55,704 nucleotides of DNA from a virus. Shown in pieces: positions 2,173 to 47,882 of the stretch. Every line of letters begins with the position of its first letter. Position 1 is the first letter of the stretch. Made by a program: the position numbers and the translations under genes. Below the pieces are notes generated by a model that did no database searches, was not told where the DNA came from, and worked only from the letters and a program-made list of their open reading frames with translations. The stretch spans positions 1-55,704 of IMG/VR virus record IMGVR_UViG_3300035698_020072. The stretch is one strand, 5' to 3'.

Positions 2173-2875
2173 CTGCACACCCCATTTCTACAAAAGAACT
2201 TCTCATTTTAATGAAAGCCTTGTTGTCATATTTTTTCTTAACCTCTTCCCTTGATTGCGTCTTAAGGTCTTCTCGTCGCTGCTTCTTTCTCTCGTCGTAT
2301 ATGTGCTGACATTTTTGAACATACGTGTCCTTCTTCATTAATTCCTTATAAAATGAATATCCATACCTAAAGATAATCACGTCGGCAGTTTTTGCTAGAT
2401 TTTCTGGATAAGCGTGATACATGGTTCCATTGTTTTTGTAGTTAGAATAGTAAACAAGAGCGTTTTTACCCCTTTTGACGAGAAGACTGAAGTTCTCAAA
2501 AAACCTGTCGGAGCCAAGAGTGTTTCCGGCAAGCATGGGAATAAAGTGTGAGACCTTGACCTTGTGTCTCTTTTTAGTCACCTTGTTTGCAGCGGGAATA
2601 GCCCTGCTCACTATTGTCTTAAAGCATTCGTCTACGACGTTCTTGTAGATAAATTCTCCGGTTATGACCTTATAGTAAAAAAATGGCACTCCACTTTCCT
2701 TGCACTTCTTTTCGTTCTTGTCTATCCACGTCATTGGAGGGGGCTTACCATCATCGCTTGTCGCTACTACAATTTGTGTTGGCGGGTGTACCTGTTCTAA
2801 TAGGTTGTCTATTGTTTTCTGTATAAGTTTTCTATTTTTCCCGATAACTAAAGCACTTAGAATGCATGTCGTCAT
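2150..2875 (-). CDS. Glycosyltransferase-like protein (GT2-related)
   Basis: 241 residues. The N-terminus CILSALVIGKNRKLIQKTID followed by QIVVATSDDG looks like the first beta-alpha-beta unit of a GT-A fold, with a degenerate nucleotide-binding loop. A clear later DxD was not found, so the enzyme may be diverged. The C-terminal third is lysine- and arginine-rich. ATG 2875 overlaps the stop of the preceding GT4 gene (ATGA) and has GGAGG upstream. It sits between two clear glycosyltransferases, which supports a role in the same glycan pathway. Confidence 0.65.
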   Translation of the reverse strand: MTTCILSALVIGKNRKLIQKTIDNLLEQVHPPTQIVVATSDDGKPPPMTWIDKNEKKCKESGVPFFYYKVITGEFIYKNVVDECFKTIVSRAIPAANKVTKKRHKVKVSHFIPMLAGNTLGSDRFFENFSLLVKRGKNALVYYSNYKNNGTMYHAYPENLAKTADVIIFRYGYSFYKELMKKDTYVQKCQHIYDERKKQRREDLKTQSREEVKKKYDNKAFIKMRSSFVEMGCADDDELLG

Positions 2876-3867
2876 TTGACAAGAACCTCCTTGAAGATTT
2901 TATTCCACTGTTTAATAAATCTCTTTATCCCAAACCTCTTAACAACAATCTCTCTTCCCGCATTTCCCATTTTTTTACACAACATCTCATTATCAAGAAG
3001 CCTACCTATGCCATCCTTTAATTCTTCAGGATCGTTTGACCATATGCCGTTCTTCCCGTTTTCCGCAAACTCAGATAGGGCTTCATTAACGGTGCTCACA
3101 ACTGGCATCCCTGTAGACATAGCTTCCAAGATCGTCATTGGAAAAGTAGAGTGGGTTGATGGATTAAAGTAAACCCTGTCGTTCTGATAAAAACCAACCA
3201 GTTCCTCAAAGCTACTGGCAACTTGACTCAATCCCGGCGTTTTGCCAACAATATGAATTGCGTCCTTGTCAACACCCTCCAACACCCTCTTCCAAAGGTG
3301 GTAGCCAGTGTCGGCGGCTCGGTTAACGAAGTCATTGCTTACCGTCAGGACTCTCCTATCTCTACCACCATACCCGACAAACTCATTCTCGTCAACAACC
3401 TGTTCTATTATGGACATGGGCAACTTAGAACCCTTGTATCCCCAAGTGTTTCTTGCCTCCTTGGTAATAAAAACCTTGTATGTCGATAGGTCTTGCTTGA
3501 CGATTTCCTTCTTGGCCTTCTTGGTAATGCTGTCTGGGGGGAGTGTGTGCATCATCGAGACAACGGGAATGTTGTTTTGTCTGCCTATTTTGAATCCCTT
3601 CTCGGCTTGAGACATTGTTTGGGACAAGATCACGTCAATTCCATCCATCTGACCCAACTGTTCGTCTTTTATCTCGCATATATTACGAGGCAACACCCTG
3701 TAGTCGGTGTCCCACATTTTCCCTTCCGGAGCAGGAACATGGTAAAAATGATGTCCTGTTTTTGCTAACTGAGACTGCCACCCCTCGTGTGTTGAGAACG
3801 AAAGGATGTTCAGTGGCTCGTCTTTGTCTCTATTTATGGCTCTACAGATAGACGTGAATCTATTCAA
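2872..3867 (-). CDS. GT4-like (GT-B fold) glycosyltransferase
   Basis: 331 residues. The N-terminal Rossmann half contains NILSFSTHEGWQSQL. The C-terminal half has the GT4 signature region: VYFNPSTHSTFPMTILEAMS followed by TGMPVVST, which carries the conserved Glu that binds the nucleotide-sugar diphosphate. It is a paralogue of the gene at 5647-6579, which starts MNILTFTTHEPWQ and has the same STFP..VIEAM segment. The ribosome binding site GGAG supports ATG 3867. The donor sugar and acceptor are unknown. Confidence 0.88.
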   Translation of the reverse strand: MNRFTSICRAINRDKDEPLNILSFSTHEGWQSQLAKTGHHFYHVPAPEGKMWDTDYRVLPRNICEIKDEQLGQMDGIDVILSQTMSQAEKGFKIGRQNNIPVVSMMHTLPPDSITKKAKKEIVKQDLSTYKVFITKEARNTWGYKGSKLPMSIIEQVVDENEFVGYGGRDRRVLTVSNDFVNRAADTGYHLWKRVLEGVDKDAIHIVGKTPGLSQVASSFEELVGFYQNDRVYFNPSTHSTFPMTILEAMSTGMPVVSTVNEALSEFAENGKNGIWSNDPEELKDGIGRLLDNEMLCKKMGNAGREIVVKRFGIKRFIKQWNKIFKEVLVK

Positions 3868-3876
3868 TGTGTTCTC

Positions 3877-4353
3877 CTAAAGATCATAGATAGTAACTTG
3901 AACGTCTTTTTCGCACAATGCTTTTTTAATAATTGGTTCCATTTTGTCCCATGTTCCACCAGCTAATCCACATCCAATTCGTGGCATATGAACTGGGAGA
4001 TTATTGTTTTCTACAGAGAAGTTACAAACCTTTTCTAATCCTGTTTTAATTGCATCGTATCTTATAGGCAGGATACCATCAAACGGATAAATACCGTCTT
4101 GTCCTATAATGTTGGCGACCCAAAGGCTCGATCCCACCTCAACAAACTGAACATTCCCTACTACAAACTTGTTAATCGCAAGAGATGGTGGAAAATTATA
4201 CCAAGAAAGATATTTATTTTTAGCTTTTGGGTGTTTTTTTGACAAGGCTAACACAAACCCCTTTCCCCATTTGCCAACATTGTTGCAGCAATGAGCTATT
4301 ATTCCATAATCAGGACTGGTTGCATCTCCACTAACATAGCGTATTGGTTTCAA
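3877..4353 (-). CDS. Macro domain protein (ADP-ribose binding/hydrolysis)
   Basis: 158 residues covering one macro domain. Visible family features are YVSGDATSP at the N-terminus, the ADP-ribose loop IIAHCCNNVGKWGKGF, and PRIGCGLAGGTW near the C-terminus. Known relatives bind ADP-ribose, remove ADP-ribose from proteins or dephosphorylate ADP-ribose 1''-phosphate. The start is TTG 4353, chosen because AAGGAG lies 8 nt upstream and no in-frame ATG exists near it. A consensus promoter lies directly upstream, so this is the first gene of a transcription unit. A role in reversing host ADP-ribosylation or handling tRNA-splicing products is inference. Confidence 0.9.
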   Translation of the reverse strand: MKPIRYVSGDATSPDYGIIAHCCNNVGKWGKGFVLALSKKHPKAKNKYLSWYNFPPSLAINKFVVGNVQFVEVGSSLWVANIIGQDGIYPFDGILPIRYDAIKTGLEKVCNFSVENNNLPVHMPRIGCGLAGGTWDKMEPIIKKALCEKDVQVTIYDL

Positions 4354-4372
4354 ATTTTATTCTCCTTAGTCT

Positions 4373-4400
4373 ATTATACGCTTTTTTCTTCAAATGTCAA
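4373..4400 (-). promoter_or_regulatory. Sigma70-like promoter before macro domain gene
   Basis: On the minus strand TTGACA (4400-4395), a 16-nt spacer and TATAAT (4378-4373) followed by AGA. The -35 box overlaps the last codons of the gene at 4390-4941. It matches three other promoters in this window (near 28480, 46615 and 50120) in the spacer end CG and the TATAATAGA core. Confidence 0.85.
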
Positions 4401-4941
4401 GTTCAAATTTTACCTCTTTTACGGCAAACTCGCCAGGATCACCCATGAACCCATCTCCCATGCAGTTCCATGGTCTTGGGAAGAGGACAGATAGTCCACC
4501 ATTTTTTTCAAATTCTTCTATGTTTTTTTCATAATCATCTACCAAAACTGTATTTGGCTTGGCGAAAAGAGACTTGTATTTACAAAACGCATACTCTCTA
4601 AACCCATTTCCAAACCTGTCCTGAAGCCACATTAGTTTTCCCGAAACAGATCTTGGATGTGGCATTGGTGTTGTCAAAAAAATCACCCTTGCAATTTTCG
4701 ACAGTTCTTCATACATCTTCTTAAACCAAGGATATTCTGGCATACTCCTCCACCAGTCTTCTCCGAAACCCTCTATCCATGTCTTGAACTCACCTTCGGG
4801 CATGCCAATGACTTTGCTTACTTCGTATTCTCCAGAAGGCCAGTTGTCGATGTCTACCTTGTAATCCATGTGGGCTACAACTTGTCCAACGAAGTCGCAA
4901 CACACGCCGTCCATGTCGAGATAAATTATTTTTTCAGACAT
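4390..4941 (-). CDS. 5'(3')-deoxyribonucleotidase-like HAD phosphatase
   Basis: 183 residues. The N-terminal motif I, YLDMDGVCCDF, has the nucleophile and acid Asp of HAD phosphatases. Motif II is VIFLTTPMP, and motif III is the late VLVDDYEKN with paired Asp. The size and the DGVCCDF form fit the 5'(3')-deoxyribonucleotidase group, which dephosphorylates dNMPs. It is adjacent to ThyX, which suggests a dNTP-pool role. A T4-like pseT phosphatase activity is less likely because no kinase domain is fused. Confidence 0.85.
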   Translation of the reverse strand: MSEKIIYLDMDGVCCDFVGQVVAHMDYKVDIDNWPSGEYEVSKVIGMPEGEFKTWIEGFGEDWWRSMPEYPWFKKMYEELSKIARVIFLTTPMPHPRSVSGKLMWLQDRFGNGFREYAFCKYKSLFAKPNTVLVDDYEKNIEEFEKNGGLSVLFPRPWNCMGDGFMGDPGEFAVKEVKFELDI

Positions 4942-4943
4942 GT

Positions 4944-5645
4944 CTACTCCGTTTCCTCTATCAGATCTCCAAAGACCTCGGGAAGCAGTTCGGCAAACTT
5001 ATACAAAATCCCAAGCATTATTTCCCTGATTTGCCACTGAGCATGTTCGTTTAGCGCTCTTTCCTTGAATACGTGTCTCCACATTCTCAAATTAAACGTC
5101 ATTGCTAATTCTGTTTTGGTTGCATTTGGCAGAATACATCTTGCATCTTCTGGTGGAATGTCAATTTTGCGCAAAGCAAGATATTTATCATAAGCACTTG
5201 CTACTTGATTTAAAAATATAACCTGAGATGTTTGATCAACATTATTATCTCCATGTTTGTTTGCCCACTGAAAAGGAGATTCGCCATTAACATATATTCC
5301 TTCGTCAAGCCCTATTGTTTTTGGACATATGACCATAAACTCCTTTTTGCCATAATCTACATACCTCTGTGACTCCTGCGATATCGCGCATAATCTATGT
5401 CTCACCAACTGATGACTACACGATCTGTCGCAAATTATCCTAGCTGTTATTGCACAATGCTCTATTACGGATTCATGTCCTTTTCTTATGATGCCCTTAA
5501 TAAATTTTTCTGCCGAGTCTTTTGTAATTTTGTCTTCGCTTTTATAACATGTTTTCCCACATTTCTCAATAAGTTTTGCGTAATCTTTGATATGTTCTAA
5601 CGGCGTAACAATTTCAAACCTTGGTTTAACAACTTTAATATCCAC
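4944..5645 (-). CDS. thyX: Flavin-dependent thymidylate synthase ThyX
   Basis: 233 residues, the normal length for ThyX, which methylates dUMP to dTMP using methylene-tetrahydrofolate, FAD and NADPH. The signature loop is RHRLCAISQESQRY, matching RHRxxSxNxxSxRY with Ile-Ser-Gln in the middle. Upstream are HESVIEHCAITARI (helix facing the active site) and RSCSHQLVRHR. Near the C-terminus, RMWRHVFKERALNEHAQWQI matches the substrate-binding helix. It lies next to a deoxyribonucleotidase gene and amid glycosyltransferase genes, an unusual position for a nucleotide gene. Confidence 0.97.
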   Translation of the reverse strand: MDIKVVKPRFEIVTPLEHIKDYAKLIEKCGKTCYKSEDKITKDSAEKFIKGIIRKGHESVIEHCAITARIICDRSCSHQLVRHRLCAISQESQRYVDYGKKEFMVICPKTIGLDEGIYVNGESPFQWANKHGDNNVDQTSQVIFLNQVASAYDKYLALRKIDIPPEDARCILPNATKTELAMTFNLRMWRHVFKERALNEHAQWQIREIMLGILYKFAELLPEVFGDLIEETE

Positions 5646-5646
5646 G

Positions 5647-6579
5647 CTATTCTCCTAAAACTTTTTTCCAATTATCCCTGAAACTTTCAAACGAAAAACA
5701 TTTGTCAAAACACTCATGCGATTTCTCAGACAACATTGTCCTGTATTCATCATTCTCTATGCAGTTTGAAATAGCACTTCTTATCTTGAAAACATCATGT
5801 CCGCCCACAAAATATTTCATCCATTCCTTCATTGGTTCATTATCAAGACAAACAACGGGTGCGCCAACAGCCATGGCTTCTATGACCACCGTGGGGAAAG
5901 TTGAGTACTTTGTTGTGTTAAAGTAACACGCACAGTTCTGATAGTATACGAGAAGCTTTTTTTGTGATGCGGGGCTTGACATTTTATCGTTGTTTCCTAT
6001 GAGCTTGACGTTCTTACTCCATGTTGAACCCAGAATCTGTTCCCACTCGGCATAGCCCAAAAGACAACCTCTCTCTTTGAAGTCGTCTGCTACTGTTAAC
6101 ACGTAACTGTCGTTGTTGGCTTCATACGACCTTGGGAAAAGCGTAGGTGAGCACGTATGCCCGACTATTTGACATTCGTCTGCCCTATACATCCATTCTC
6201 GTGCCTGATATGCTGTGGTAAAAACCTTCTTGTCCGACTCGTCTCCACCTTTTGCTTCGATCATATGGTGTTCTTTCCAAAATGGTAGCGGCAGACAGTG
6301 TTCCATCTCTATCCACATGGCACTTCTTAGTCGCTTGTCTATCTCTCTCAGGCTTTTCGTCGCATAGCGTTGCTCATAGGCAGTGTGAGACATTATGACG
6401 TCTATTCCCATGTTGGTGGGATCGTTAATCTCCACAAAGTTTCTCGGAAGTGGTCTGATGTTATTCCTCCAGCCCTTGCGACGCTCTGGGCTTTTTAACG
6501 AGTAGAACATATGCTCTGGGAAGGCTTCAGACAACGTGTATTGCCAAGGCTCGTGAGTCGTAAACGTTAATATATTCAA
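5647..6579 (-). CDS. GT4-like glycosyltransferase
   Basis: 310 residues. It begins MNILTFTTHEPWQYTL, like the paralogue at 2872-3867, and has the C-terminal GT4 region YFNTTKYSTFPTVVIEAMAV followed by GAPVVCLD. In this family the Glu in the VIEAM segment contacts the donor sugar nucleotide. It has a short N-terminal domain compared with typical GT4 enzymes of 350-400 residues. Acceptor is unknown. Two paralogues with conserved start and active-site segments in one block point to gene duplication in the phage lineage. Confidence 0.86.
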   Translation of the reverse strand: MNILTFTTHEPWQYTLSEAFPEHMFYSLKSPERRKGWRNNIRPLPRNFVEINDPTNMGIDVIMSHTAYEQRYATKSLREIDKRLRSAMWIEMEHCLPLPFWKEHHMIEAKGGDESDKKVFTTAYQAREWMYRADECQIVGHTCSPTLFPRSYEANNDSYVLTVADDFKERGCLLGYAEWEQILGSTWSKNVKLIGNNDKMSSPASQKKLLVYYQNCACYFNTTKYSTFPTVVIEAMAVGAPVVCLDNEPMKEWMKYFVGGHDVFKIRSAISNCIENDEYRTMLSEKSHECFDKCFSFESFRDNWKKVLGE

Positions 6580-6595
6580 AGAAAATACTCCTATG

Positions 6596-7717
6596 TTATT
6601 GTTTTGACAAAATTTCTTCTATTGTCTTAAGGTATTTTTCTCCAACAACGTCATAAGCATATTTGTAAGAGTTCTCCCTGCACTTAATGCTCATTCTTTC
6701 CGTTTCCGTGCTGTCCATATTATATGCTCTGAGCATGCATTCTCTTAGTGACATTATGTCAATCTGATTCCACAACTGATCTCCGCGATAAAGATGTTCG
6801 GGCGCACACTCATGCATTCCAATCACGGGATGTTTTCTACTCTTAACTATTAGTGCCGTTTCGGGACTAAGGTATTCACTCATGCCACCAAAGTTCGGTG
6901 AAATTATCACATTACCAAAAGCCATGGCGTCAAACACTGGCAGGTTCCAACTTTCTCCCCGACTTGAACACACGTATGTGTCAAACGTATTGTGCATTGC
7001 GGCAATCTCTTCTTCGTTCACGCTACTGGGATTAATCATAAGTGCTGGATAGTTTTTAAACCTGAGTGTTTCCTTCATCTTGTTTATCAGATCTATTACG
7101 GCTCTTCTCGTAACTCTTTCGTTCTTTCCGGTTATGTGCAAGAATAACAAGACGTCACTCATGTCCTGAAACGTGGTGAAATATGCCAATATGGTGTCAG
7201 CAAGACCTTTTCTTGGCGAGATTTCCGCTATGGTGTAAAACTTTTTCCTGAAGTTCCTGATGTCATCATTATCCATTACCTGTCTGTTGTTCACATAAAA
7301 GTTTATATCACAGGGAACCGGTAGGACATAGGTTGGTTTGTCCACATGGCTTTCTTTTATGGCAAGTGCATCATCTTTTGATGACGCTATTATCGCATCT
7401 ACGTGGTTGTTCAGATAGCCATCCCACATAGACCCTCTGAAATGATTTGTTTCCCAGTAAAACATGCTTATGAGCGGAGACTTTGTTTCATTAAGCTGCT
7501 CGGGAAGAGAATGTATTATAGTCGCATCTACGTTTGTCAGGCTCCGGTCTTCCATCTTGACAATTATGTCATCCATTTCGTCGTTAGATGGTGCTGCCAT
7601 TTGCAGGTGCCTTGCCGCTACGTTTATTCCCGCCGCATCAAGAGACAGCAATATTCGCCTTGCCGCATATGAGTATCCACTACAATCTCGATAGTTTCCG
7701 ATGAATGCTATCTTCAT
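6596..7717 (-). CDS. GT4 family glycosyltransferase
   Basis: 373 residues from ATG 7717, which has AAAGGAG 7 nt upstream; the open frame continues nine codons further but without a site. The N-terminus MKIAFIGNYRDCSGYSYAAR is a GT-B donor/acceptor loop with the Gly-rich turn. The C-terminal domain has FYTIAEISPRKG, YVCSSRGESWNLPVFDAMA and FGNVIISPNFGGMSEYL, typical of GT4 enzymes, with Glu in RGESWNLP. It lies in a run with the larger GT4 gene upstream. Confidence 0.93.
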   Translation of the reverse strand: MKIAFIGNYRDCSGYSYAARRILLSLDAAGINVAARHLQMAAPSNDEMDDIIVKMEDRSLTNVDATIIHSLPEQLNETKSPLISMFYWETNHFRGSMWDGYLNNHVDAIIASSKDDALAIKESHVDKPTYVLPVPCDINFYVNNRQVMDNDDIRNFRKKFYTIAEISPRKGLADTILAYFTTFQDMSDVLLFLHITGKNERVTRRAVIDLINKMKETLRFKNYPALMINPSSVNEEEIAAMHNTFDTYVCSSRGESWNLPVFDAMAFGNVIISPNFGGMSEYLSPETALIVKSRKHPVIGMHECAPEHLYRGDQLWNQIDIMSLRECMLRAYNMDSTETERMSIKCRENSYKYAYDVVGEKYLKTIEEILSKQ

Positions 7718-7727
7718 TTTTTCTCCT

Positions 7728-9413
7728 TTAGGATATAATTTCAATCTTAAAATTGTTAACCTTTTTTGAACCGTTCAAAACCACATCCCTATACCTCTCT
7801 GATTCGTTTTTCAGGTTCATTATACCCCTAAATCTTTCTATCATTCCCTCTGGTGTTACCTTCTCGTCTGGCTTTTTCTTGTCAACATTGTATCCTGCCT
7901 TAAGAGACAAAACCATTCTGCTCTTCTGGTAGTCTGTTATTATGTCGTCGTTATTGAGAAAATTATCATGGCACCAGTCAACAAACTCTTCTGCACTGTT
8001 GGTGTGAGGTGCCTGATCTGCCTTTGGTTTTATGATACTAATAGGCGACTCCCACGTTTCTCCTACGGGATCAACTTCTATTTCGTCTATGATTTTCTCC
8101 CATGTTTCAATGGAGTTCTTCCAATTATAAATCTCTTCAGCACACTCTCGGGCTTCTCTACAAAGAGTGTCATTTTCCTTTTTTGGCATGGTAAGCGTAT
8201 CGTATATTTTATCAGCAAGGTCTTCTCTTGAGAACAAGCACCTGTAGAGCATCGACTGTTGTTCCGTAAAGAATCTCTCTATTTTCACGGGTATCCCGCC
8301 TCTGTGTCTGCGCTCTTCGTTGCCTATGTCCACAACCTGTTCTTCCATTGCCGAGTAGGGAGGAGCAATAACGGGAACACCACACGCCTTGAACTCTGCG
8401 ATTGCCATCTCCTGTCCACCAGCAGTTGCGAGTTGAACAGCAAGGTCAGCGCATTGCATTATCTTGGCAAGATGCTCTCTACTAACCCCACAGTTTATGT
8501 TCGGAAGGATGGCCGTCATTTGCTTACATCGCCTACACCTTGCTTGCATGCCACTGAAGTATGACGCAAACACGTGTCCGCACTTGGAACAAACGTATGT
8601 CATCATTACCTTGTGACTATATCCGCTCCTCATAATACACTCTGGTATATCCCACCCATTGTCCGGATAAGATGTGTGCAGGTAGAACACGAGGTTCTTG
8701 GCAAGCTCTGGATTTTTGTCCTTGTATTTTTCCACAAAGATGCCCATGGTCTCAAGAAAGTCTGGGAACAATTTTCGCATCTGGTTTCGTGAGACAAACG
8801 ATACGATTTTAAGATTTGGGTCTATTCCAAGTTCTTCTCTCAGCTTCCTCTTGTCTTCTGTGGGCTTAAACAGGTCCAACTCAACCCCTGCCTGTGCAAC
8901 TCCGGCAACGTTTATGCTGCCATTAGACTGATCCTCAATAACCTCTTTTCCAAAGTGGCTATATGTCAAAACCCTATCTACTCTTTTATATATGTCCATC
9001 CATTCGTCTCTCTGTGGATATGAGTCAATAGCTGGCATGACTATGTGCTTGAAAAACCTCCTGTATGGAGAGTTGGGTTGATAGGAAAAATACCAAGGGT
9101 CTCTCCAGTCAATCACTATGTCAGCTTTCCACTCTAAGGCTACCTTGTCAAAACAGGCTGCTCCGAACTGGTTGGCACGATTGGAGTTGTATATCGCCGT
9201 TGCCTCTTGATCTGACGGATGAGGGATTACGGGGAAGACCTTCCATGGCAAATCCCAGATTCGACTGTCTCCGGGCTTGCAGTATGCTGCCAATGACGCT
9301 ATTTCATACTTGTCTTTATCGAATAGTGCCGTTATGAGATTCTTTCCGTAGACGGCAAAGCCACTATTCAGTGCTGAAAACTCTGTGACAAAAAGGATTC
9401 TTTTTTTACGCAT
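7728..9413 (-). CDS. Large GT4 family glycosyltransferase with inserted zinc ribbon
   Basis: 561 residues, longer than the usual 350-400 for GT4. The N-terminus ILFVTEFSALNSGFAVYGKN is a GT-B opening. Midway is a four-Cys insert, CSKCGHVFASYF...CRRCK, that looks like a zinc ribbon. The later segment LATAGGQEMAIAEFKACGVP carries the GT4 Glu motif. About 100 extra C-terminal residues are of unknown function. The insert may position a substrate or partner; this is inference. It is followed closely by the next GT4 gene at 6596-7717. Confidence 0.9.
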   Translation of the reverse strand: MRKKRILFVTEFSALNSGFAVYGKNLITALFDKDKYEIASLAAYCKPGDSRIWDLPWKVFPVIPHPSDQEATAIYNSNRANQFGAACFDKVALEWKADIVIDWRDPWYFSYQPNSPYRRFFKHIVMPAIDSYPQRDEWMDIYKRVDRVLTYSHFGKEVIEDQSNGSINVAGVAQAGVELDLFKPTEDKRKLREELGIDPNLKIVSFVSRNQMRKLFPDFLETMGIFVEKYKDKNPELAKNLVFYLHTSYPDNGWDIPECIMRSGYSHKVMMTYVCSKCGHVFASYFSGMQARCRRCKQMTAILPNINCGVSREHLAKIMQCADLAVQLATAGGQEMAIAEFKACGVPVIAPPYSAMEEQVVDIGNEERRHRGGIPVKIERFFTEQQSMLYRCLFSREDLADKIYDTLTMPKKENDTLCREARECAEEIYNWKNSIETWEKIIDEIEVDPVGETWESPISIIKPKADQAPHTNSAEEFVDWCHDNFLNNDDIITDYQKSRMVLSLKAGYNVDKKKPDEKVTPEGMIERFRGIMNLKNESERYRDVVLNGSKKVNNFKIEIIS

Positions 9414-9459
9414 TTATGTTCTCCATAACAAATATATTAATTGTGTTCGTTGGTGTTTT

Positions 9460-9999
9460 TCACCATTTTTCAAGCACATCTTTTATACAGGTTGCGATGC
9501 GTTCAGAAGCATCTTTTACCGTAGTTTCTTTTAAACTGAAGGTATAGTTGTCGTCTGCAAGAAGCCCCAACGTGGCCATGGTTTTGATTCCACGATCACG
9601 GTCAGCCTTATTTGTCGAACCGTATCCCTTAATGACAACATTGACTATTGTTACTCCGTTCTGTTTTTCCAAATCCGTGGGGTTTATTGTGATAGTTACA
9701 TTAACCCATGCTCCCTTAGCTGTGTCCACGGCATAAAGACGCACTTGATTGTTTTCAACATCTGGAAGGTCTTCATCCATGGGTTCTTTTAGCCACTCTC
9801 CCATTTCAAGAGCAATTTCGTCATCATCCCCACAAACATCGAAGGTGCTACCTAAGACCTGCATGATAGGCATACACCCACTCGTGCTTTCTTTTCTTGA
9901 CGTCTTTGATATTTGCTTGAGAAACCTTACTTTGTCTTCATCGAGATCCATTTCAAACCCTGTCGTGCCATCACACCCTATTAGTTTTATAAGTATCAT
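9460..9999 (-). CDS. Hypothetical protein within glycosyltransferase block
   Basis: 179 residues, acidic, without any motif I can name. The N-terminal part is rich in Asp and Glu (DLDEDKVRF, CGDDDEIALEMGEW). The central part, WVNVTITINPTDLEKQNGVT, looks like alternating beta strands. No signal peptide or membrane segment is seen. The start at 9999 follows the stop of the preceding GT4 gene by 1 nt and has an AGGAG upstream. It might be an accessory protein for the glycosyltransferase block, but nothing in the sequence shows it. Confidence 0.75.
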   Translation of the reverse strand: MILIKLIGCDGTTGFEMDLDEDKVRFLKQISKTSRKESTSGCMPIMQVLGSTFDVCGDDDEIALEMGEWLKEPMDEDLPDVENNQVRLYAVDTAKGAWVNVTITINPTDLEKQNGVTIVNVVIKGYGSTNKADRDRGIKTMATLGLLADDNYTFSLKETTVKDASERIATCIKDVLEKW

Positions 10000-10000
10000 A

Positions 10001-11077
10001 TTATTCTCCTAAAATATTTATAAGTTTTTGCGCCGAAGCTTCCCAACTAAACTTTTTAGCCGTTTCAATTCCATACTCATTTAAGCGAGCCTTTTCTTTT
10101 ATTTCTTTGTATGTTTTTTTCAGTGCACCTATGATGTCTTTTTTCTCAAACTCACTCCATTGCCCACTGTTGGTTCTCTCTGGAAAAAACCATCTTCCAT
10201 CTTCTGCGACTTCTTTTCCGATTGGATATATTAAGTGAGAATTAGCATTACTACAAAACTCAGTATGAGCGGTATTATAACTTGAAATACACTGGAGTCC
10301 ACACGACATGGCTTCGAGAAGACATAGATTAAAACCCTCGGCTCTGCTTACTCCAATATAGATGTCATTGCAATTATATATATAGCACAAATCCTCTTGG
10401 GTATTCACCAAAGGATGAACGAACATCTTGTGCCCGAGTTTCAACGACTTAACAAAGCCAACCCAGTCTGTCATCTCTTCCATCTTAAGAAAGGGGTTGT
10501 GGGTATAGAAGTGCAACTCAACATCATCAAACGGAGTAAAGGCAGCGGAGAAACATTCTGCAATCTCTTTGTGCATCTTCCTCTTCTCAAGCTTCCCCCC
10601 GCACATATATTTTACCGTATTTGGGCTTCTGTTCTCAACCGTTGGCATGAACACACTCCTATCTACTCCAAGTGGAACCACATGGGCAGACTTGTTGGTT
10701 CTATTCTCTATGACCCTCTTAGCCCACTCCGAGCAAACAATTATGTTCTGTGCTGAGTTCAGTTGGTGCAACTCGTTATCCCCAAAATTATCAAGCTCAA
10801 AAATGGGAAAAGCATAGTGATCTCCCTTCCCTACGTATTGAGCCAAGTCAAACTGATGCCATATTCTCACGCAGGGTGCAAGATTCCAATATGAGTTTCT
10901 TCCCCTGTCTACCATTCTCATTATGTGGTTGCGGTCAGACTGTTTGTTGAACTCCATGTTCGGTCCTATGGGAAAGAGAGACACGTTAGCGCCCTCTTTT
11001 TCAAGAGCAATGCAAAGATTAGTCGTAACCACACCATATGATAGCTTGTTAATTGGACCTATTATGTTAATAAGCAT
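10001..11077 (-). CDS. GT4 family glycosyltransferase
   Basis: 358 residues. The N-terminus INIIGPINKLSYGVVTTNL has the GT-B Gly-rich loop. The C-terminal domain shows YMCGGKLEKRKMHKEI, then IGVSRAEGFNLCLLEAMSCG, the classic E-x7-E motif with two Glu that hold the nucleotide sugar. The length is normal for GT4. This is the clearest canonical GT4 of the block. It is the first of the block in transcription order, following a short cysteine-rich gene. Confidence 0.94.
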   Translation of the reverse strand: MLINIIGPINKLSYGVVTTNLCIALEKEGANVSLFPIGPNMEFNKQSDRNHIMRMVDRGRNSYWNLAPCVRIWHQFDLAQYVGKGDHYAFPIFELDNFGDNELHQLNSAQNIIVCSEWAKRVIENRTNKSAHVVPLGVDRSVFMPTVENRSPNTVKYMCGGKLEKRKMHKEIAECFSAAFTPFDDVELHFYTHNPFLKMEEMTDWVGFVKSLKLGHKMFVHPLVNTQEDLCYIYNCNDIYIGVSRAEGFNLCLLEAMSCGLQCISSYNTAHTEFCSNANSHLIYPIGKEVAEDGRWFFPERTNSGQWSEFEKKDIIGALKKTYKEIKEKARLNEYGIETAKKFSWEASAQKLINILGE

Positions 11078-30453: not shown

Positions 30454-30834
30454 TTACTTTCCATGCCTTCTGTTGCAATCTTCCTTGCTAACAAGATTGG
30501 CTTGACTTTCATAATATAGGTTAAAAGCGCTCTTAATGTCTTTTCTTAGCTCTTCTATGAGTGCGTTTACGGACTTTAGTCCATCCTCAAGGGTTTTGGT
30601 TATGTTTTCTTTGTCGTTCTTAAGAAGAGCAACATCTCTTTTTACTACTTCCATTTCTCTTTCTTGTTCTTTCTCTTGTTTTTCAGCTTTTTCAGACTCT
30701 TCTTTGAGTCTTTTGTCTATTGATTCTAGTGCGTCTTCCATTCGCTTATTGGCACTTAGATACATGTGTCGCATTAGTCCAAGAATAAGAATAGCAAGCG
30801 GGATTGCTACGGACAGGGGTATTTTTAATTCCAT
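30454..30834 (-). CDS. Single-pass membrane coiled-coil protein
   Basis: 126 residues. An N-terminal membrane segment (about residues 6-26, LSVAIPLAILILGLMRHMYL) is followed by a long Lys/Glu-rich coiled coil (about 35-95) and a C-terminal SKEDCNRRHG. It resembles an i-spanin or other membrane-anchored coiled-coil protein in layout, but no Rz-specific feature is seen. GGAG is present upstream. A weak TATAAT lies upstream of the gene. Confidence 0.7.
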   Translation of the reverse strand: MELKIPLSVAIPLAILILGLMRHMYLSANKRMEDALESIDKRLKEESEKAEKQEKEQEREMEVVKRDVALLKNDKENITKTLEDGLKSVNALIEELRKDIKSAFNLYYESQANLVSKEDCNRRHGK

Positions 30835-30884: not shown

Positions 30885-31071
30885 CACCGATGTTGGCTAT
30901 TAGGTTCTTGCCAGCTTTGATGTCTAACATTTCTTCTATGGAGAAAAACCCGCTTTGACACACTATCTCATCGGCCATTGATGGACTATATGCGAACATG
31001 AGATATAGATACATTGATTCGTTTACGTCTAAGGTGTTGGCGTTGCAGTCCGTTGTGCCTACTTTTTGCAT
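30880..31071 (-). CDS. Small hypothetical protein
   Basis: 63 residues, starting in the last bases of the Ntn-hydrolase gene. It contains SMYLYLMFAYSPSMADEIV and SGFFSIEEMLDIKAGK. No membrane helix is firm and no motif is recognised. A position right after the Ntn-hydrolase gene could indicate a partner, but there is no sequence evidence. Confidence 0.6.
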   Translation of the reverse strand: MQKVGTTDCNANTLDVNESMYLYLMFAYSPSMADEIVCQSGFFSIEEMLDIKAGKNLIANIGV

Positions 31072-31640
31072 TTACGGCCTCCATTTTTGGCTTTTAGCTT
31101 GAGTATTTTGAATGGTGCAGCTACACACGAATCACAAGATGCAGAAATTTTAAGAGCTTTCTTTATTTTGTTTGATGTAGACATTTTTTGGTTTTCTATG
31201 GCATAAAGAGCACTTATGGCAAAATCAGCGCCACAACCGCAACAGTCAAAGTCTTCTGGATGTATGGCAATTTGATAGTCACTGTGAATATGATACAATT
31301 TCCCATTATACCCAACAAGAAACTCTCCATAAGATATACTGTCTACCTCATCCTTTTCTCTATTAAACCCTCCGCTTTTCATTATTTCTCTCACGCCCTC
31401 TACGAATTCAGTAACCATGTATTCATAATCATCTACTCCTGCATAATGGGGTGGTGGATCAAACTTGAATTTTAAAAGTTGTCCCATTCGTGGGCTTCCA
31501 CAATATCCAAAAATAAAATCTTCTGTCTTAAAAATCTTGCTGTCATTTCTGGTTTTTATTTCATTCCCTCGTGTTGCGGCAGAATCAGCACCCATGTAGA
31601 TGTCGCCATTTTTCTCAACATATCCAACTATACAAGTCAT
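31059..31640 (-). CDS. Proteasome-like Ntn hydrolase (HslV/20S beta type)
   Basis: 193 residues. The N-terminus MTCIVGYVEKNGDIYMGADS matches proteasome beta/HslV-type Ntn hydrolases, in which a Thr at position 2, exposed after Met removal, is the nucleophile. Further conserved places are GADSAATRG, IFGYCGSPRM, GEFLVGYNG and CGCGADFAISALYA, like the HslV GxGxxxAxAA segment. The C-terminal 30 residues are Lys/Cys-rich. Relatives are self-compartmentalised peptidases; a phage function is not known to me. No ATPase partner gene is present in the window. Confidence 0.85.
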   Translation of the reverse strand: MTCIVGYVEKNGDIYMGADSAATRGNEIKTRNDSKIFKTEDFIFGYCGSPRMGQLLKFKFDPPPHYAGVDDYEYMVTEFVEGVREIMKSGGFNREKDEVDSISYGEFLVGYNGKLYHIHSDYQIAIHPEDFDCCGCGADFAISALYAIENQKMSTSNKIKKALKISASCDSCVAAPFKILKLKAKNGGRKCKK

Positions 31641-32641: not shown

Positions 32642-33001
32642 TCAAAACTTTCTATAAAAAAACGTCATACCACAACTCTTACAGTCTCCAATTGGCAATG
32701 ACCTATTACACTTTGGGCAGATGTATTTGAAGTCAAAAAAGCTGTCTATTTTATCGGCACTGACGCTATAGTTTAAGTCGTCTTTATCCCTGTCTTCGAT
32801 AATAACATTTAGGCGCTTCTGTGGTAATATCTCAAACTCCATGCTACGACCTTCTTTGTAGCACCCTATTTGTATGGTGTTGTTGCCATTCACGACGACA
32901 CTTGTTTCGTAGTTATGATAATTAGCCGTTTTTGCTATCTCGGTTAGGATGTTTAGGGATTCTGTCAAATTGTCTTTGTTGTAACTGCGTTCGTTATTCA
33001 T
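32642..33001 (-). CDS. Hypothetical protein with C-terminal zinc ribbon
   Basis: 119 residues. N-terminal helices lead to a beta region (SVVVNGNNTIQIGCYKEG), followed by the zinc ribbon ICPKCNRSLPIGDCKSCGM, a CxxC-CxxC pair. ATG 33001 overlaps the end of the 3D-domain gene by 4 nt. Ribbon proteins of this type often bind nucleic acids. No specific family is recognised. Confidence 0.7.
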   Translation of the reverse strand: MNNERSYNKDNLTESLNILTEIAKTANYHNYETSVVVNGNNTIQIGCYKEGRSMEFEILPQKRLNVIIEDRDKDDLNYSVSADKIDSFFDFKYICPKCNRSLPIGDCKSCGMTFFYRKF

Positions 33002-33288
33002 TTTTTATTTCTCCGGTTGCCTATTCTTAAAAAGATTCCATGATCTACCTGTATAAAATATCTCTTTCCCCACTGCAAAGCTTCTTCATGTGTTGGGAAC
33101 AGAACTTCAAGCTTGCGACCTTTGGCTTTTGGACCAACATCATTTATCTTTGCAAATCCATATCCTTCAATATAAACCTTAGTCCCTTTTGGCAAAACAC
33201 TCCAGTCTCCAGCAACACATCCTCTTTCTGCTTTTTCAAGAGAGGCAACTTTCCCGTCGGCGAACTCGCCGCAACAGCATTTCTTGGG
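32998..33288 (-). CDS. 3D domain (lytic-transglycosylase-like) segment after an in-frame TGA
   Basis: A reading frame directly after the stop of the coiled-coil gene (33289-33291 TGA). It reads PKKCCCGEFADGKVAS, then CVAGDWSVLPKGTKVYIEGY, followed by FAKINDVGPKAKGRKLEVLF. This matches the 3D domain of MltA-type and phage lytic proteins, including Asp in the ND and the LEVLF strand. A Cys is expected where TGA falls, by analogy with AYC...CCG in relatives. A TTG at 33195 with weak GGAG could start a shorter form. It may be made by readthrough or be inactivated. Confidence 0.7.
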   Translation of the reverse strand, partial: PKKCCCGEFADGKVASLEKAERGCVAGDWSVLPKGTKVYIEGYGFAKINDVGPKAKGRKLEVLFPTHEEALQWGKRYFIQVDHGIFLRIGNRRNKK

Positions 33289-33687
33289 TCAGTAGGCTCT
33301 GATGGTCCAGATTTCTTGTTCTATTAAACTTGTTGGAATCTGCTCTTCCTGAACAATAGGTTCTTTTTTTATAATATTGGTAAGCTCTATCTTCGCATAG
33401 GCTAATTCTTGCTTAAGGGTCTGGTTTTCCTCTTCGACCTCCTCAAGCTCTTCCTCTGTTTCTCTCTGTGTTTCTTCCATTTCTTTTTGTTTTTCTTCCA
33501 TCTTTTTTTGTGTTTCTTTTATTTTTCCCACATATATGTGTAGTTCGGAAATGTATTCAAGCTGATCTCTTATGCACTGCCTGTCTCTTAGGGTATCCTT
33601 GACGTGACCGAGGAACGTCATTGTTAGCAATGCCAAAACCAAAAAGAACAACATCATATCCCTGTGTTCATCAAATATCTTTTTCAT
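33289..33687 (-). CDS. Membrane-anchored coiled-coil protein (N-terminal half of a 3D-domain protein)
   Basis: 132 residues to the TGA. A membrane segment (about residues 11-28, MLFFLVLALLTMTFLG) precedes a long Glu/Lys coiled coil (about 55-105) and ends IWTIRAY just before the TGA. The same frame continues into the 3D-domain segment at 32998-33288. The design (membrane anchor, coiled coil, 3D domain) occurs in known cell-wall lytic proteins such as YorM/YocH relatives. The predicted protein acts at the cell envelope. Confidence 0.8.
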   Translation of the reverse strand: MKKIFDEHRDMMLFFLVLALLTMTFLGHVKDTLRDRQCIRDQLEYISELHIYVGKIKETQKKMEEKQKEMEETQRETEEELEEVEEENQTLKQELAYAKIELTNIIKKEPIVQEEQIPTSLIEQEIWTIRAY

Positions 33688-34337
33688 ACGGCCCCCCTAC
33701 CATGACAACACTCACACGCTTGGCTTGCTTCACCTGTTCCGTTACACTCTTGGCATTCGTCTTCGTATAAATCCTGCACATCACCATATCCGACATTTGT
33801 CTTTTTGTCAAACCCATCCACGAGCTTCTCAATCACCTTTATGTCACGGCCATATTTCTCCATTAACACCACCATGGCATTCACGAACATAACAAGGTTT
33901 TTCTCAGTAGCTGGCAAGGTTAGAACGTCCAGCCCCTCTTCCGGCTTCGCCTCGGTCGGCTCGGGCTCGCGGATCGGCGCGGCGTGTTGGTACAAACCAA
34001 ATCTACCGTTTTCATCTTCCACAAGATGTTTAAATAAATTCTTATAATGATAGCATCTATAATTACATTTTTTTGGAGTTGAATCCGCATACGACGCCCA
34101 GACCTCTTCGCCCGGCTCGAAATAGTGGCGCTCTATTATTGAGAATTCCGGCATAAAACCATATGCTTCTTCGAACCTACAATACAAAGGAGTTGAAGAA
34201 TTTTTCGCATAATATATATGGGCTATCGTTAGCCATTTCATTTTCTTTATTTCATCTGAATTAAACCTATGTATATCAGCATAATCTTTTGCACAAATTA
34301 CAACTCTGTCGCCTACGCGATAATCATTCTCTTTCAT
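33684..34337 (-). CDS. SH3-like and zinc-finger hypothetical protein
   Basis: 217 residues. The N-terminal half has GDRVVICAKDYADIHRF and IIERHYFEPGEEVWASYAD, shared with the proteins at 34550-35149 and in part 51761-52126. The C-terminus CQECNGTGEASQACECCHGR has CxxCxGxG repeats like DnaJ zinc fingers. Such fingers bind unfolded proteins or nucleic acids. The TGATG-like coupling to the next gene supports co-translation. Confidence 0.72.
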   Translation of the reverse strand: MKENDYRVGDRVVICAKDYADIHRFNSDEIKKMKWLTIAHIYYAKNSSTPLYCRFEEAYGFMPEFSIIERHYFEPGEEVWASYADSTPKKCNYRCYHYKNLFKHLVEDENGRFGLYQHAAPIREPEPTEAKPEEGLDVLTLPATEKNLVMFVNAMVVLMEKYGRDIKVIEKLVDGFDKKTNVGYGDVQDLYEDECQECNGTGEASQACECCHGRGAV

Positions 34338-38810: not shown

Positions 38811-39608
38811 TTACGCCATCCAATCCTTTGTGGTCGAAATCTTCATTCCCTTTGCCCCCATTTCCTTTATAAAGTCTTCTTCCAAGTTCTCAAATCCGGG
38901 AACAGGGCTACATGCATCTTCAAGCAATACGAACTTACCTATAGAGCTTTCGTCAGAGAAGTTTTCTGCCGTATCACGTAAACTGTGGGCGAGGCAATGG
39001 CTACTTGCTTCACCGGCGACGAGAATGACATCAGCTTCCTCGATTGTCTGTATGAAGCCCGTGTTTAACTGTGTCGTAACATCTTCGGGGTCTGGGACGT
39101 CTGCCTGTACGGCACTGTAATGTTCAGTCCAAGGGTTGCTGCCTTTTGTTACGTAGTTGACAACGTTGAAATCCTTTTCCCATTCCATAATGGCATCAAA
39201 CAGGGTAGAACAAACCTGCGCACCGTTACTTCCAATGAGGCAGTGTGGTGGCCATATGCACAGTGGGTATCTAGCGTTTCGTTCGAGCTTATCCACGTAT
39301 TCCGTTGCTCTCTTCTGACACCTTAAGTCACTTGCTCTCCAACTTCCAGCGTTTACATCTGAAGCCGAGATGATCGTGAAGGGATCGGGGTGTTTGCCGT
39401 CTTTGCCAACCCAAAATATAGGATGGGCGATGTCAACGTAGTGGTGACTATCCAAGGTGATATGTATGGATTTCAGCTTATCCTTAACTCTGCCGACAAA
39501 TCCAGCAAGCCTCTCCATATCTTCGTTTGCTCCGGGAACAAACAGGCTACCAGTTGGGTCACAAAAGTCATACTGCGGATCAATAACCAATAAATGAACA
39601 TTCTGCAT
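38811..39608 (-). CDS. Nicotinamidase-like cysteine hydrolase
   Basis: 265 residues. Catalytic residues fit the family: Asp10 (LLVIDPQYDF), Lys155 (VTKGSNP) and Cys205 (ASSHCLAHSL). Metal-site residues include DSHHYVDIAH (Asp53, His55/56, His62). It hydrolyses nicotinamide to nicotinate, the first step of one NAD salvage route. The adjacent gene at 39672-40097 encodes the start of nicotinate phosphoribosyltransferase, the next step. The start ATG 39608 has AAGGAG upstream. Confidence 0.9.
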   Translation of the reverse strand: MQNVHLLVIDPQYDFCDPTGSLFVPGANEDMERLAGFVGRVKDKLKSIHITLDSHHYVDIAHPIFWVGKDGKHPDPFTIISASDVNAGSWRASDLRCQKRATEYVDKLERNARYPLCIWPPHCLIGSNGAQVCSTLFDAIMEWEKDFNVVNYVTKGSNPWTEHYSAVQADVPDPEDVTTQLNTGFIQTIEEADVILVAGEASSHCLAHSLRDTAENFSDESSIGKFVLLEDACSPVPGFENLEEDFIKEMGAKGMKISTTKDWMA

Positions 39609-39671: not shown

Positions 39672-40097
39672 TTATCTGTTTTTTGGAGGTTTTAGGTCAT
39701 AAACAATACTGTTATATAACTCACTGATTGTAGCTAACAGGGGCACCTCCCAGAATATAGTATCTTTCCAAAGCCCCTTAACTTTTACGCTTAATTGTCC
39801 CTCGTTCTGCTCTATTTTAACCTGAGATAGATTATATCTGTAGTTCATAAGAAAATCAGAGTAAAATTGTGACAAAAAAGGACATTTTCTAAGCAAGAAC
39901 GCAGATTCTTTGCCTGTTAGTTTTATGTCTTCAAATTTACTAATAGCATATCTTAGTTGGTATGCAAAACCCTCTGGAAATACGATGTCGTCTCTGACTA
40001 TGAGTTTATACTCGACTTCCGTGCCTGGGAATAGCGAATAGGCAACTTGTCCCATTGTGAATTTGTATAGGTCATTTTCTAAAAAACTTTCTATCAT
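39672..40097 (-). pseudogene. Nicotinate phosphoribosyltransferase, N-terminal fragment
   Basis: 141 residues similar to the first third of PncB/NAPRT: FLENDLYKFTMGQVAYSLFP, FPEGFAYQLRYAI, FLRKCPFLSQFYSDFL as read with gaps, and FWEVPLLATISELYNSIV. The whole family is about 400 residues, and the phosphoribosyl-pyrophosphate site lies in the missing C-terminal part. The frame ends at a stop and no remaining downstream segment was found, so a deletion is likely. It may be non-functional or form part of a complex; both are inference. Confidence 0.8.
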
Positions 40098-40767: not shown

Positions 40768-40903
40768 TCTTATTCTCCGCATGTGTCGCGTGTCAAGCCT
40801 CTCGGGATTAGCCTGACTTACCCGCCAGAGATCCTTGTCCCATGGTCTGCGTCACTCTGGAATCGGTACCGGCCGCTTTTAACTAACTTGACCATAGTCC
40901 TAA

Positions 40904-40986
40904 GACTTCGGACGGGACTCGAACCCGCACCAACGCAATCGCTGCTCTACCAAAGGGCTGATCAAACCCATTAAGCTACCGAAGTC
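40904..40986 (-). ncRNA. tRNA-like structure B (83 nt) with D-loop insert and shortened anticodon arm
   Basis: On the minus strand, an 8-bp acceptor (GACTTCGG with CCGAAGTC) closes a T-arm GCGGGTTCGAGTCCCGT and a D-arm beginning TAGCTTAATGG, interrupted by about 16 nt before GTAGAGC. The position of the anticodon arm shows only a 5-bp stem with a 4-nt loop (ATTG). Canonical loop length of 7 is not found. The inserted part can form GGGT-TTGATCA-GCCC, a hairpin with a 7-nt loop. It may be a degenerate tRNA or a specialised tRNA mimic. The G at position -1 pairs with C at the discriminator position. Confidence 0.65.
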
Positions 40987-41134: not shown

Positions 41135-41205
41135 GACTCCAGTCGGGAATCGAACCCGAGTTTAGGGAGCTACCCTACCGACTAACCACTCGTCGCACTG
41201 GAGTC
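41135..41205 (-). ncRNA. tRNA-like structure A (71 nt) with five-base anticodon loop
   Basis: On the minus strand: 8-bp acceptor GACTCCAG/CTGGAGTC, D-arm CGAC-GAGTGGTTA-GTCG, T-arm TCGGG-TTCGATT-CCCGA, with only two or three variable-loop bases. The anticodon arm is TAGGG-TAGCT-CCCTA, a 5-bp stem with 5-nt loop; if opened by one pair, the loop would be GTAGCTC with AGC at the anticodon place. The total of 71 nt is short. No CCA is encoded. It may be a tRNA-like RNA that does not decode. Confidence 0.65.
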
Positions 41206-42133: not shown

Positions 42134-42474
42134 TATTTCCCTCCAAACTCTTTACTCAATCTCTCATATTGCCTTCGTCTCTTGTCCTTTGCTTTTTGTT
42201 TTCTGTTCTTAGATGTTTCTTTGGCTCTTTTTTCCTTAGCGATCCTGTCTTTTGTTTCATCGCTTGTTTCTTCTCTTTCTCCATAAAACTTCAACTCTTC
42301 TACTCCACGATCAAAAGCACCATACTCAGAAACAATATCTATATTGGTATATCCATCATCCTTAAGCTTTTCTTTTATAAAAAGTATCTCATCAACAAAG
42401 GAATCAACACGCATGCAAAAACTGCATAGCTCTATAGACTCTTCTGTTCTCTCGTTAATCATTTTCTTTTTCAT
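42133..42474 (-). CDS. Small basic-tail hypothetical protein
   Basis: 113 residues from ATG 42474 (AGGGGA upstream); the first ten codons of the open frame are shadow. It overlaps the Thg1-like gene by 20 nt. The C-terminal half is strongly basic (RAKETSKNRKQKAKDKRRRQ). It may bind RNA or another negative partner. It has one CSFCMRVD pair. Confidence 0.65.
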   Translation of the reverse strand: MKKKMINERTEESIELCSFCMRVDSFVDEILFIKEKLKDDGYTNIDIVSEYGAFDRGVEELKFYGEREETSDETKDRIAKEKRAKETSKNRKQKAKDKRRRQYERLSKEFGGK

Positions 42475-43279
42475 CCTGTTTCCCCTCAACAACTGGCTCG
42501 GCACCTTCGAAAATAACCTCCACGCGATTTACCACTGTGCTAAAGATGGGCATATCTACCTTTTCATAAGAGGTTCTCTCTACAATCAAATTCGGACTAC
42601 CATGGGCTTCGTGCATTGGTGGAAGTTTTGAAATCTCATCTGTGGTGAACATGCGTGGCATCTTTTTTCTTTGGACGTATGTTCCCCTTTTGAAGAAGGT
42701 TGAGTAGTCATTCCAGTTTATATTTTTTTCCATGAGCATGTCTTGCATTTGACTCCCATTTTTGTGCATAAGCTGATTATGAGAATACACGGACTGAGCA
42801 GCCATGGCAATGCTGTTCTTAACGGCGTCAAATTCACGCCACAACACCACGTTTGCAGCCTCGAACAACGTCGGGACAGACCAGACTCGACAATCAAACA
42901 GGGCTAACTGGTCCTTCTCTGGGAGAAACTCTGGTTTAAGCGAGTTGAAGTATGCCGTGGCCATAGACGCAAGCACTGAGCACATTTTCTGTATGCGGCC
43001 ATCAAAGAATATCTGGCTTTTGTAGCTATTACTATACCATACCAAGGTAATCTCATCTGATTGGGTATAACCAATACAGGCATTTGTTTCAGAAGTAAGC
43101 ATCTTCGTCGTGGCTACCATCAAATCTGAAAACCTTTTGTCATATGGTCTGTCAAGCCCCTTGCAGAAATTGTGGAAGCACTTACCGTCAATACGAGCAC
43201 ACACGGGCAACAGGGGTTTAAAGCGCTGACTGGCATCCATTGCCTCCAACGTCTTCATCCGATTTCCAAAATCACTCAT
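42455..43279 (-). CDS. Thg1-like 3'-5' nucleotidyltransferase
   Basis: 274 residues. Catalytic metal-binding residues follow the Thg1 numbering: Asp31-Gly32 (VCARIDGKCFHNF) and Asp76-Glu77 (YTQSDEITLVWY). Both correspond to the conserved Asp and Asp-Glu of tRNA-His guanylyltransferase. The enzyme family adds nucleotides to the 5' end of tRNAs, either G-1 of tRNA-His or as tRNA repair. It lies about 1.2 kb from tRNA-like structures that have a G-1:C pair. Substrate remains unknown. Confidence 0.9.
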   Translation of the reverse strand: MSDFGNRMKTLEAMDASQRFKPLLPVCARIDGKCFHNFCKGLDRPYDKRFSDLMVATTKMLTSETNACIGYTQSDEITLVWYSNSYKSQIFFDGRIQKMCSVLASMATAYFNSLKPEFLPEKDQLALFDCRVWSVPTLFEAANVVLWREFDAVKNSIAMAAQSVYSHNQLMHKNGSQMQDMLMEKNINWNDYSTFFKRGTYVQRKKMPRMFTTDEISKLPPMHEAHGSPNLIVERTSYEKVDMPIFSTVVNRVEVIFEGAEPVVEGKQDEKEND

Positions 43280-46639: not shown

Positions 46640-47488
46640 TTAACGAATATATTGGACGCCCTGTTTTGTCCATCCGGCAAACCCTGAAATATTATGCTCT
46701 TCAAACGAATCCGCATAGTGCATAAGATACATCTTCTTCTTCCAGTCTTCGGGAAGCGTGTTGAGATCAAAAAGTGGGGCATGCACGGCACCGGGGAAGA
46801 ACTGAACATCATGGAATATCGTGTCTGCTCTTTCGGCATAGTGCTCAAGCAGGGGAAGATCAAACTTAGTGTCACAAGTTATTAAGATGCTGTTGTTTAT
46901 GAACAGTCCATAAGAAAGGAATGATCCAGACCACCTATCTGACTGCTCGGGGATGTGGTTAGTTCGGAACATCTCGATATGAATTCCACCGACATCTACC
47001 TCGAAAATCTCTCGTGGCTGATGAACAAGCCATTGGGGGCGTATTATGCCGAAATAGTCAGCAAACCCCATTACCTTGCCGTCTGCAAGCTCCTCGTTAT
47101 ATTCCAAGCCACCACGCAGACTGTTTTCCCAAAGCACACGTTGGTATTCTTCGGCGATAACCATTTTCAATTTATTCTTTCCTTGGAAGGGAATCCCCAC
47201 ATACCTGTTCATCTGTGCAAGCTGTTCTATGCCACCAATATGGTCTCCATGGCTATGAGTTGGGAGTATGACCTCGATGTCGTATGCAGATAGCCCGGTT
47301 GTTCGGGGAAAAGCCTCCAGTGCTGTTCTTCCAAAGTCAACCATCACGTGATCTTCACCCCTGACGAGCAGGAAGTTTGTCTGATTGTGTTTTTCCGTAA
47401 ACGCAGACCCAACCCCTATGAAAAACAAACGCAACTTGTCATCATCATATGAAAACCTTATGTTCTTTTCCGAAGTTTCCCTAATCAT
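46640..47488 (-). CDS. MBL-fold metallohydrolase (possible cyclic-nucleotide phosphodiesterase)
   Basis: 282 residues from ATG 47488, with GGAGG upstream. Metal motifs are LPTHSHGDHIGG (HxHxDH) and LITCDTKFD (Asp). The N-terminus LRLFFIGVGSAFTEKHNQTN is typical of beta-lactamase-fold enzymes near RNase Z. Phage proteins of this fold include cyclic-nucleotide phosphodiesterases that counter Pycsar defence; the fold alone does not prove this. The second His motif FRTNHIPEQSD fits a ligand. Confidence 0.85.
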   Translation of the reverse strand: MIRETSEKNIRFSYDDDKLRLFFIGVGSAFTEKHNQTNFLLVRGEDHVMVDFGRTALEAFPRTTGLSAYDIEVILPTHSHGDHIGGIEQLAQMNRYVGIPFQGKNKLKMVIAEEYQRVLWENSLRGGLEYNEELADGKVMGFADYFGIIRPQWLVHQPREIFEVDVGGIHIEMFRTNHIPEQSDRWSGSFLSYGLFINNSILITCDTKFDLPLLEHYAERADTIFHDVQFFPGAVHAPLFDLNTLPEDWKKKMYLMHYADSFEEHNISGFAGWTKQGVQYIR

Positions 47489-47882
47489 TGTTTTCCTCCT
47501 CAATAACGTGGCAGTAAAAAACGGGTTCTTTTTTCATAACGGCATAAAACCTTGTCTTACACTCGCACAAGTAAACGTAATTGTTTTCTTCTATGGAAAG
47601 CTCTACTTTTTCTTCCCATTTTTCGTCTTGCCGTCCGCAACTAGGACACGTTGGAATGGCAAACACCCGTGTCTTCTCCTTTTTAATGAGTTCTATCTCG
47701 GCAACACCTTCCAGACAGTCTACGGGAACACAAACATTAGACCAAACACCATGGTCTTTATATTTTATGTTCGCCATTTTGCCATCAATACCACACAGGA
47801 TATATTTTTTGTTTTTTGCTCCGTATTGTTTGGCTAAGTGCTTGCCTTCTTCTGTGTTTAGGTTGAACATAACCTTGCTCAT
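47481..47882 (-). CDS. Hypothetical protein with zinc-ribbon pair
   Basis: 133 residues from ATG 47882 with GGAG upstream. CPSCGRQDE and LCECKTRFY give a CxxC-CxC zinc pair near the C-terminus. The N-terminal part is beta-rich. Overlaps the MBL-fold gene start by 8 nt, suggesting co-translation. Confidence 0.67.
   Translation of the reverse strand: MSKVMFNLNTEEGKHLAKQYGAKNKKYILCGIDGKMANIKYKDHGVWSNVCVPVDCLEGVAEIELIKKEKTRVFAIPTCPSCGRQDEKWEEKVELSIEENNYVYLCECKTRFYAVMKKEPVFYCHVIEEENND

Follow-up and report, generated by a model that had tools for sequence, protein, structure and literature searches.

A single in-frame TGA cuts a phage gene for a predicted 3D-domain cell-wall hydrolase

Main

When a single TGA separates a membrane coiled-coil protein from most of a cell-wall hydrolase-like domain, is the frame two genes, one gene whose stop codon is decoded, or one gene that has been broken? 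The question arises in a virus record of 55,704 bases (G+C 0.41), which was analysed whole and is called the window here. Nearly all of its genes lie on the minus strand, and because it encodes a glycosyltransferase block, a DnaE-type polymerase, a primase, a DnaB helicase and a UvsX-like recombinase, the window represents a phage genome or a large fragment of one. At one end of the record, 511–11077 is taken up by the glycosyltransferase-like genes (phrog_2170 and others).

We find that the frame is one gene and that it is probably an interrupted copy, owing either to a nonsense change in the phage genome or to a base error in the contig.

Results

One gene with a single break

The gene runs on the minus strand from 33687 to 32998, a frame of 230 codons with one TGA as its sole break (Table 1). 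An earlier note had described a coiled-coil membrane ORF that ends in IWTIRAY-TGA and continues in the same frame into a 3D domain, and both our ORF reading and a Pfam match confirm it. The first ORF has 132 codons; past the TGA, the frame reads PKKCCCGEFADGKVAS... for 96 codons, up to a terminal TGA overlapping the next gene's ATG. The second part matched Pfam 3D (PF06725) above the curated cut-off (E = 1.8e-8; 34.9 bits against 23.8), and the read-through protein matched phrog_22529 (E = 3.8e-16), while the N-terminal part by itself had no PHROG match. ATGA overlaps at both ends, as seen here, are how a single gene is usually packed in an operon. Among the 85 minus-strand ORFs tested, the median extension past the stop was 6 codons, and this was the sole read-through frame of more than 66 codons that did not just amount to a following gene with a start of its own. 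Gene callers would report the membrane coiled-coil protein but overlook the 3D domain.

Table 1 Features of the interrupted gene and its neighbours in the window
Feature	Positions	Strand	Basis
Upstream gene; ends in a stop that overlaps the start of the interrupted gene as ATGA (33687–33684)	33684..34337	-	ORF reading
N-terminal part: membrane helix, long coiled coil and first 3D beta-strand (residues 124–132)	33289..33687	-	ORF, AlphaFold2
In-frame TGA (codon 133) where the CPxxxCCG motif has its first Cys	33289..33291	-	ORF reading, relatives
Hairpin CGGCG-AGUU-CGCCG on the coding strand, loop 22 nt past the TGA; SECIS-like, not distinctive by the published bSECIS model	33258..33271	-	
Remaining 3D domain (YuiC/MltA-like), 96 codons past the TGA	32998..33288	-	PF06725, PHROG, Foldseek
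Downstream gene; its ATG overlaps the 3D stop as ATGA (33001–32998)	32642..33001	-	ORF reading

An AlphaFold2 model of the read-through protein, computed from an alignment that included 29 relatives (mean pLDDT 83.8, pTM 0.45), has a helix at residues 2–108 followed by the 3D fold, with its first strand at 124–132, just ahead of the stop. The model was YuiC/MltA-like in Foldseek, where the best solved matches were to YuiC (4wlk, E = 2.1e-7) and, more weakly, to MltA (E = 1.9e-3); a sequence profile also matched YuiC (4wli, E = 8.9e-16). The short form would carry only a fragment of the 3D domain, the TGA coming after the first strand.

That placement bears on whether the 3D part is instead translated from its own start as a separate gene, a case that the earlier note had named as one that would overturn its reading, and we consider this almost certainly wrong. 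A TTG at 33195 does open a 65-codon ORF, but one from which the first strand, the Cys motif and the domain's first conserved Asp are missing; there is no ATG, GTG or TTG between the TGA and 33195, so that no in-frame start restores the whole domain. Motif and domain lie in one ORF in 107 of 109 relatives among the matches listed. Because the TGA directly follows the first beta-strand of the 3D fold, this is one gene cut by a TGA, not two genes.

Several other genes of the window were identified along the way. An HslV-family peptidase-like protein (phrog_1040, E = 4e-26) is encoded at 31059–31640, near a second membrane coiled-coil ORF (30454–30834), and an Apyc1-like anti-Pycsar protein (PF23023, E = 3.8e-28), likely a counter-defence gene, at 46640–47503. 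A pair of ORFs at 39672–40097 and 38811–39608 comprises a free-standing nicotinate phosphoribosyltransferase N-terminal domain (PF17767, E = 5.5e-28), lacking the remainder of the enzyme, and an adjoining ORF that has no Pfam match and that we take, by motif, to be nicotinamidase-like.

Close relatives carry cysteine at codon 133

A pattern requiring a Cys codon at the place of the TGA found at least 120 viral stretches, which with one further locus (L205) gave 121 loci. A BLASTP relative (E of 1e-3 or better) was found in 108 of these, one of them a 20-residue chance match; the best identity to the window protein was 46% among the matches listed. Since that pattern demands Cys, a second scan was run with the codon left free. 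It returned 84 stretches, from which 80 loci were read and 52 were 3D domains (44 by script flag and 8 re-sorted by eye); the non-3D rows included 27 with TGG and one with TGA. All 52 3D loci had Cys at the place (TGC in 29, TGT in 23). Thus the homologue comparison that the earlier note had proposed gave a Cys codon throughout the close relatives and no TGA, and its remark that Cys is usual here holds for the CPxxxCCG subgroup but not for the whole 3D family: a wider sample of 20 loci from one bacterial class had Thr in 13, Ser in 4 and Cys in 3.

With TGA at the codon, the motif matched 3 stretches in viral and 73 in genome sequences; their translations, when read, showed no 3D domain (0 of 76), in a search that may omit records very near the window and so could hide close kin. 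Alignment of the UGA with Cys of homologues, as in a selenoprotein, is therefore present, whereas a TGA kept in another homologue, as in either a selenoprotein or programmed readthrough, was not found.

No close relatives of the phage itself were found with three single proteins as queries, and a single-protein query against seven genomes gave no match. A polymerase profile found relatives of at most 39% identity (80 records), and in the 45 of these records that were searched a 3D domain was present in three. In one (L321) the place is occupied by Thr and the frame ends in TGA; the other two (L320 and L322) have one TAA inside and no stop inside, respectively.

How often copies of this gene are interrupted was estimated from 118 TGY rows, which after removal by eye of 9 non-3D rows left 109 3D relatives among the matches listed. 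The frame was uninterrupted through the region of the third Asp in 107 and interrupted in two, of which one (L086) looks frameshifted and the other (L090) has an in-frame TGA; an interrupted copy of this gene is thus not rare in the collection. In L090 (12810–13080), on the contig of another phage that uses the standard code, the frame reads CCGK-TGA-SDG, with the stop a few codons after the Cys and Trp, Tyr or Phe there in relatives.

An active-site variant shared with intact genes

In YuiC, the third Asp, D162, is described as catalytic and as oriented by Thr T91 (PMC4499186). By alignments, the window protein has Glu194 in place of D162 and Arg130 in place of T91; of the three conserved Asp residues it retains two (D161 and D183). 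With Glu as the third, the 3D part is predicted by profile and fold to be a divergent YuiC/MltA-like, lytic-transglycosylase-like cell-wall hydrolase, an assignment that does not imply catalysis.

D194E with T130R looked at first like active-site loss through decay of the 3D part. We scored 107 relatives at both places, two of them by eye. Glu at the third Asp place occurred in four, which are two pairs of identical printed stretches: L050/L113 with Met at 130, and L058/L121 with Arg at 130. Thr or Ser stood at 130 in 101, all with Asp, and two relatives with Tyr or Val there also had Asp. A coupled variant, in which the catalytic Asp is replaced by Glu and the orienting Thr or Ser is lost, is therefore found in intact phage genes, so the swap in the window protein need not depend on the TGA and decay was rejected as its explanation. 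The window sequence deviates at 4 of the 16 near-invariant columns, a count that ties for the highest among 30 sequences; D194E is among the four, and T130R is outside that count.

Can the TGA be decoded?

A conserved Cys replaced by TGA, with a stable hairpin at a suitable distance, has the classic look of a selenoprotein. UGA might accordingly be decoded as selenocysteine (Sec) through a downstream hairpin acting as a bacterial SECIS (bSECIS) element, with SelA, SelB, SelC and SelD of the host, making this a phage-encoded selenoprotein; we regard this as very unlikely, and a membrane-anchored 3D enzyme whose UGA, beside the active-site Tyr, is read as Sec as marginally less probable again. 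The invariance of the Cys in the close relatives and the strong G–C stem speak for Sec, and the hairpin (a 4-nt AGUU loop with G second and then U, a spacing of 22 nt and −11.5 kcal/mol) satisfies all four constraints of a bSECIS model set out in PMC13188914. However, 35 of 80 Cys relatives also pass this model at the corresponding position, as do 1,282 of 3,000 synonymous shuffles drawn with the phage's codon usage and, across the window, 685 of 8,299 codon positions and 12 of 164 Cys codons. With a stricter loop rule and an energy no higher than that of the hairpin, the counts were 13 of 80 relatives, 68 of 3,000 shuffles, 51 of 8,299 codons and 3 of 164 Cys codons. By one measure, which counts against an interrupted copy, the hairpin is unusual: a contiguous stem with at least five G–C pairs, a threshold chosen after the hairpin had been seen, occurred in 12 of 5,000 synonymous shuffles, at 0 of 8,299 window codon positions and in 3 of 66 relatives. 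Because it too encodes CGEFADG, one Cys relative (L031) forms a hairpin identical in loop and almost identical in stem, and the hairpin of the window gene is probably explained in large part by the coding motif. The RNAfold energy of the region was not unusual (z from −0.04 to −0.40 in three stretches), and there was no Rfam SECIS match. No selB, selD or tRNA-Sec above cut-off and no UCA-anticodon tRNA were found in the record, which is possibly a fragment and says little about the host. In the literature text available to us, we found no redox role for Cys in 3D domains and no report of a phage selenoprotein, and single cases of such a kind have been termed only 'candidates' because of sequencing errors (PMC1088965).

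Functional leaky readthrough, in which a small share of ribosomes would place an amino acid, probably Trp, at the UGA and so make the long enzyme, is also unlikely, though less so than Sec. The overlap of both frame ends with neighbouring genes is in its favour, and it would perhaps be aided by the phage's own tRNA-Trp(CCA), at 55332–55258, which is mismatched at the loop end of the anticodon stem: ARAGORN gives that stem 4 pairs with the bottom pair open, and the mismatches, in our numbering, are the C-U at the loop end and C13-A22. In the portions of PMC13092985 available to us, a tRNA-Trp opened at the top of the anticodon stem raised UGA readthrough, but the class opened at the bottom, to which the phage tRNA belongs, was set aside, which makes this tRNA a lead and not evidence. 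It also retains A9 and G24 (our numbering). Trp was not seen at the place in the relatives read, the CPxxxCCG subgroup having Cys, and no second phage gene with a similar arrangement, or any other TGA read-through candidate, was found among the 85 minus-strand ORFs. The earlier note had called the TGA followed by C a leaky context; C does follow, but it does so at 8 of the 26 TGA stops, which makes the context a common one in this phage that does not stand out. A different genetic code was rejected because TGA ends 26 ORFs, as an ordinary stop does, and the 1116-aa polymerase has no in-frame TGA.

The record does hold unusual tRNA-like elements. A 71-base element at 41135–41205 (minus strand, 41205–41135) has an 8-bp acceptor stem and a 5-nt anticodon-type loop; tRNA-Sec is its best-scoring model, at 30.1 bits against a cut-off of 47, and the match was rejected, as the element has no UCA anticodon. 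A second odd element (40903–40986) has an 8-bp acceptor stem and a long insertion in the D region. Close to both, 42455–43279 encodes a Thg1-type tRNA-His guanylyltransferase (PF04446, E = 9.2e-30); a role in repair is only a guess.

Discussion

The three readings offered in the earlier note were programmed readthrough, recoding and a recent nonsense change. The last is the best supported, because the TGA recurs in none of the relatives found, the hairpin is probably in large part a product of the coding motif, no Sec machinery was found in the record and about 2 of 109 copies are interrupted; the other two are unsupported, and nothing found shows deliberate read-through of the stop by the phage. 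A further 26 codons of the window frame are one change away from TGA and 5 of those encode Cys, so that a Cys codon is not an improbable target. Counting against an interrupted copy, the frame has no other break.

We thus favour a single gene whose product would be a membrane-anchored cell-wall hydrolase with a coiled coil and a 3D domain (lytic-transglycosylase-like), the frame being cut by one TGA, most likely through a recent nonsense change or a base error in the assembled contig; we infer that the change is recent and not selected. Ribosomes would stop after 132 residues, giving a membrane coiled-coil protein without the enzymatic domain, and full-length protein, if made, would arise only through background misreading of the UGA. 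Were the UGA decoded, the locus would represent either a selenoprotein of a phage or a cell-wall gene that a phage gates by readthrough; with Sec, the full enzyme would be made only in selenium-replete, Sec-decoding hosts. A caution follows for similar searches: close to half of this family's Cys homologues pass the published bSECIS model, so that a Cys/TGA pair together with a hairpin is weak evidence here.

Like bacterial selenoproteins with a bSECIS element, the window gene has UGA at a Cys place and a hairpin at the right distance; it differs from them in that the hairpin is not distinctive by the published model, and neither a TGA homologue nor, in the record, the machinery was found. With YuiC, the Sps protein of Bacillus subtilis (4wlk, 4wli and 4wjt), and with E. 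coli MltA, the window protein is predicted to have the 3D-domain barrel in common, and the first and second Asp of YuiC are kept, whereas in the window gene a TGA stands ahead of most of the domain. Nearest are the phage 3D proteins of the CPxxxCCG subgroup (L103, L026, L037 and L031 in IMG/VR, and a Vescimonas plasmid protein in L008), which share with the window protein the AYCPxxxCCG motif, ADG and PTHxEALxWG and, like it, often have a membrane or coiled-coil N-terminus; in contrast to the window gene, 107 of 109 among the matches listed have an unbroken ORF with Cys at that position.
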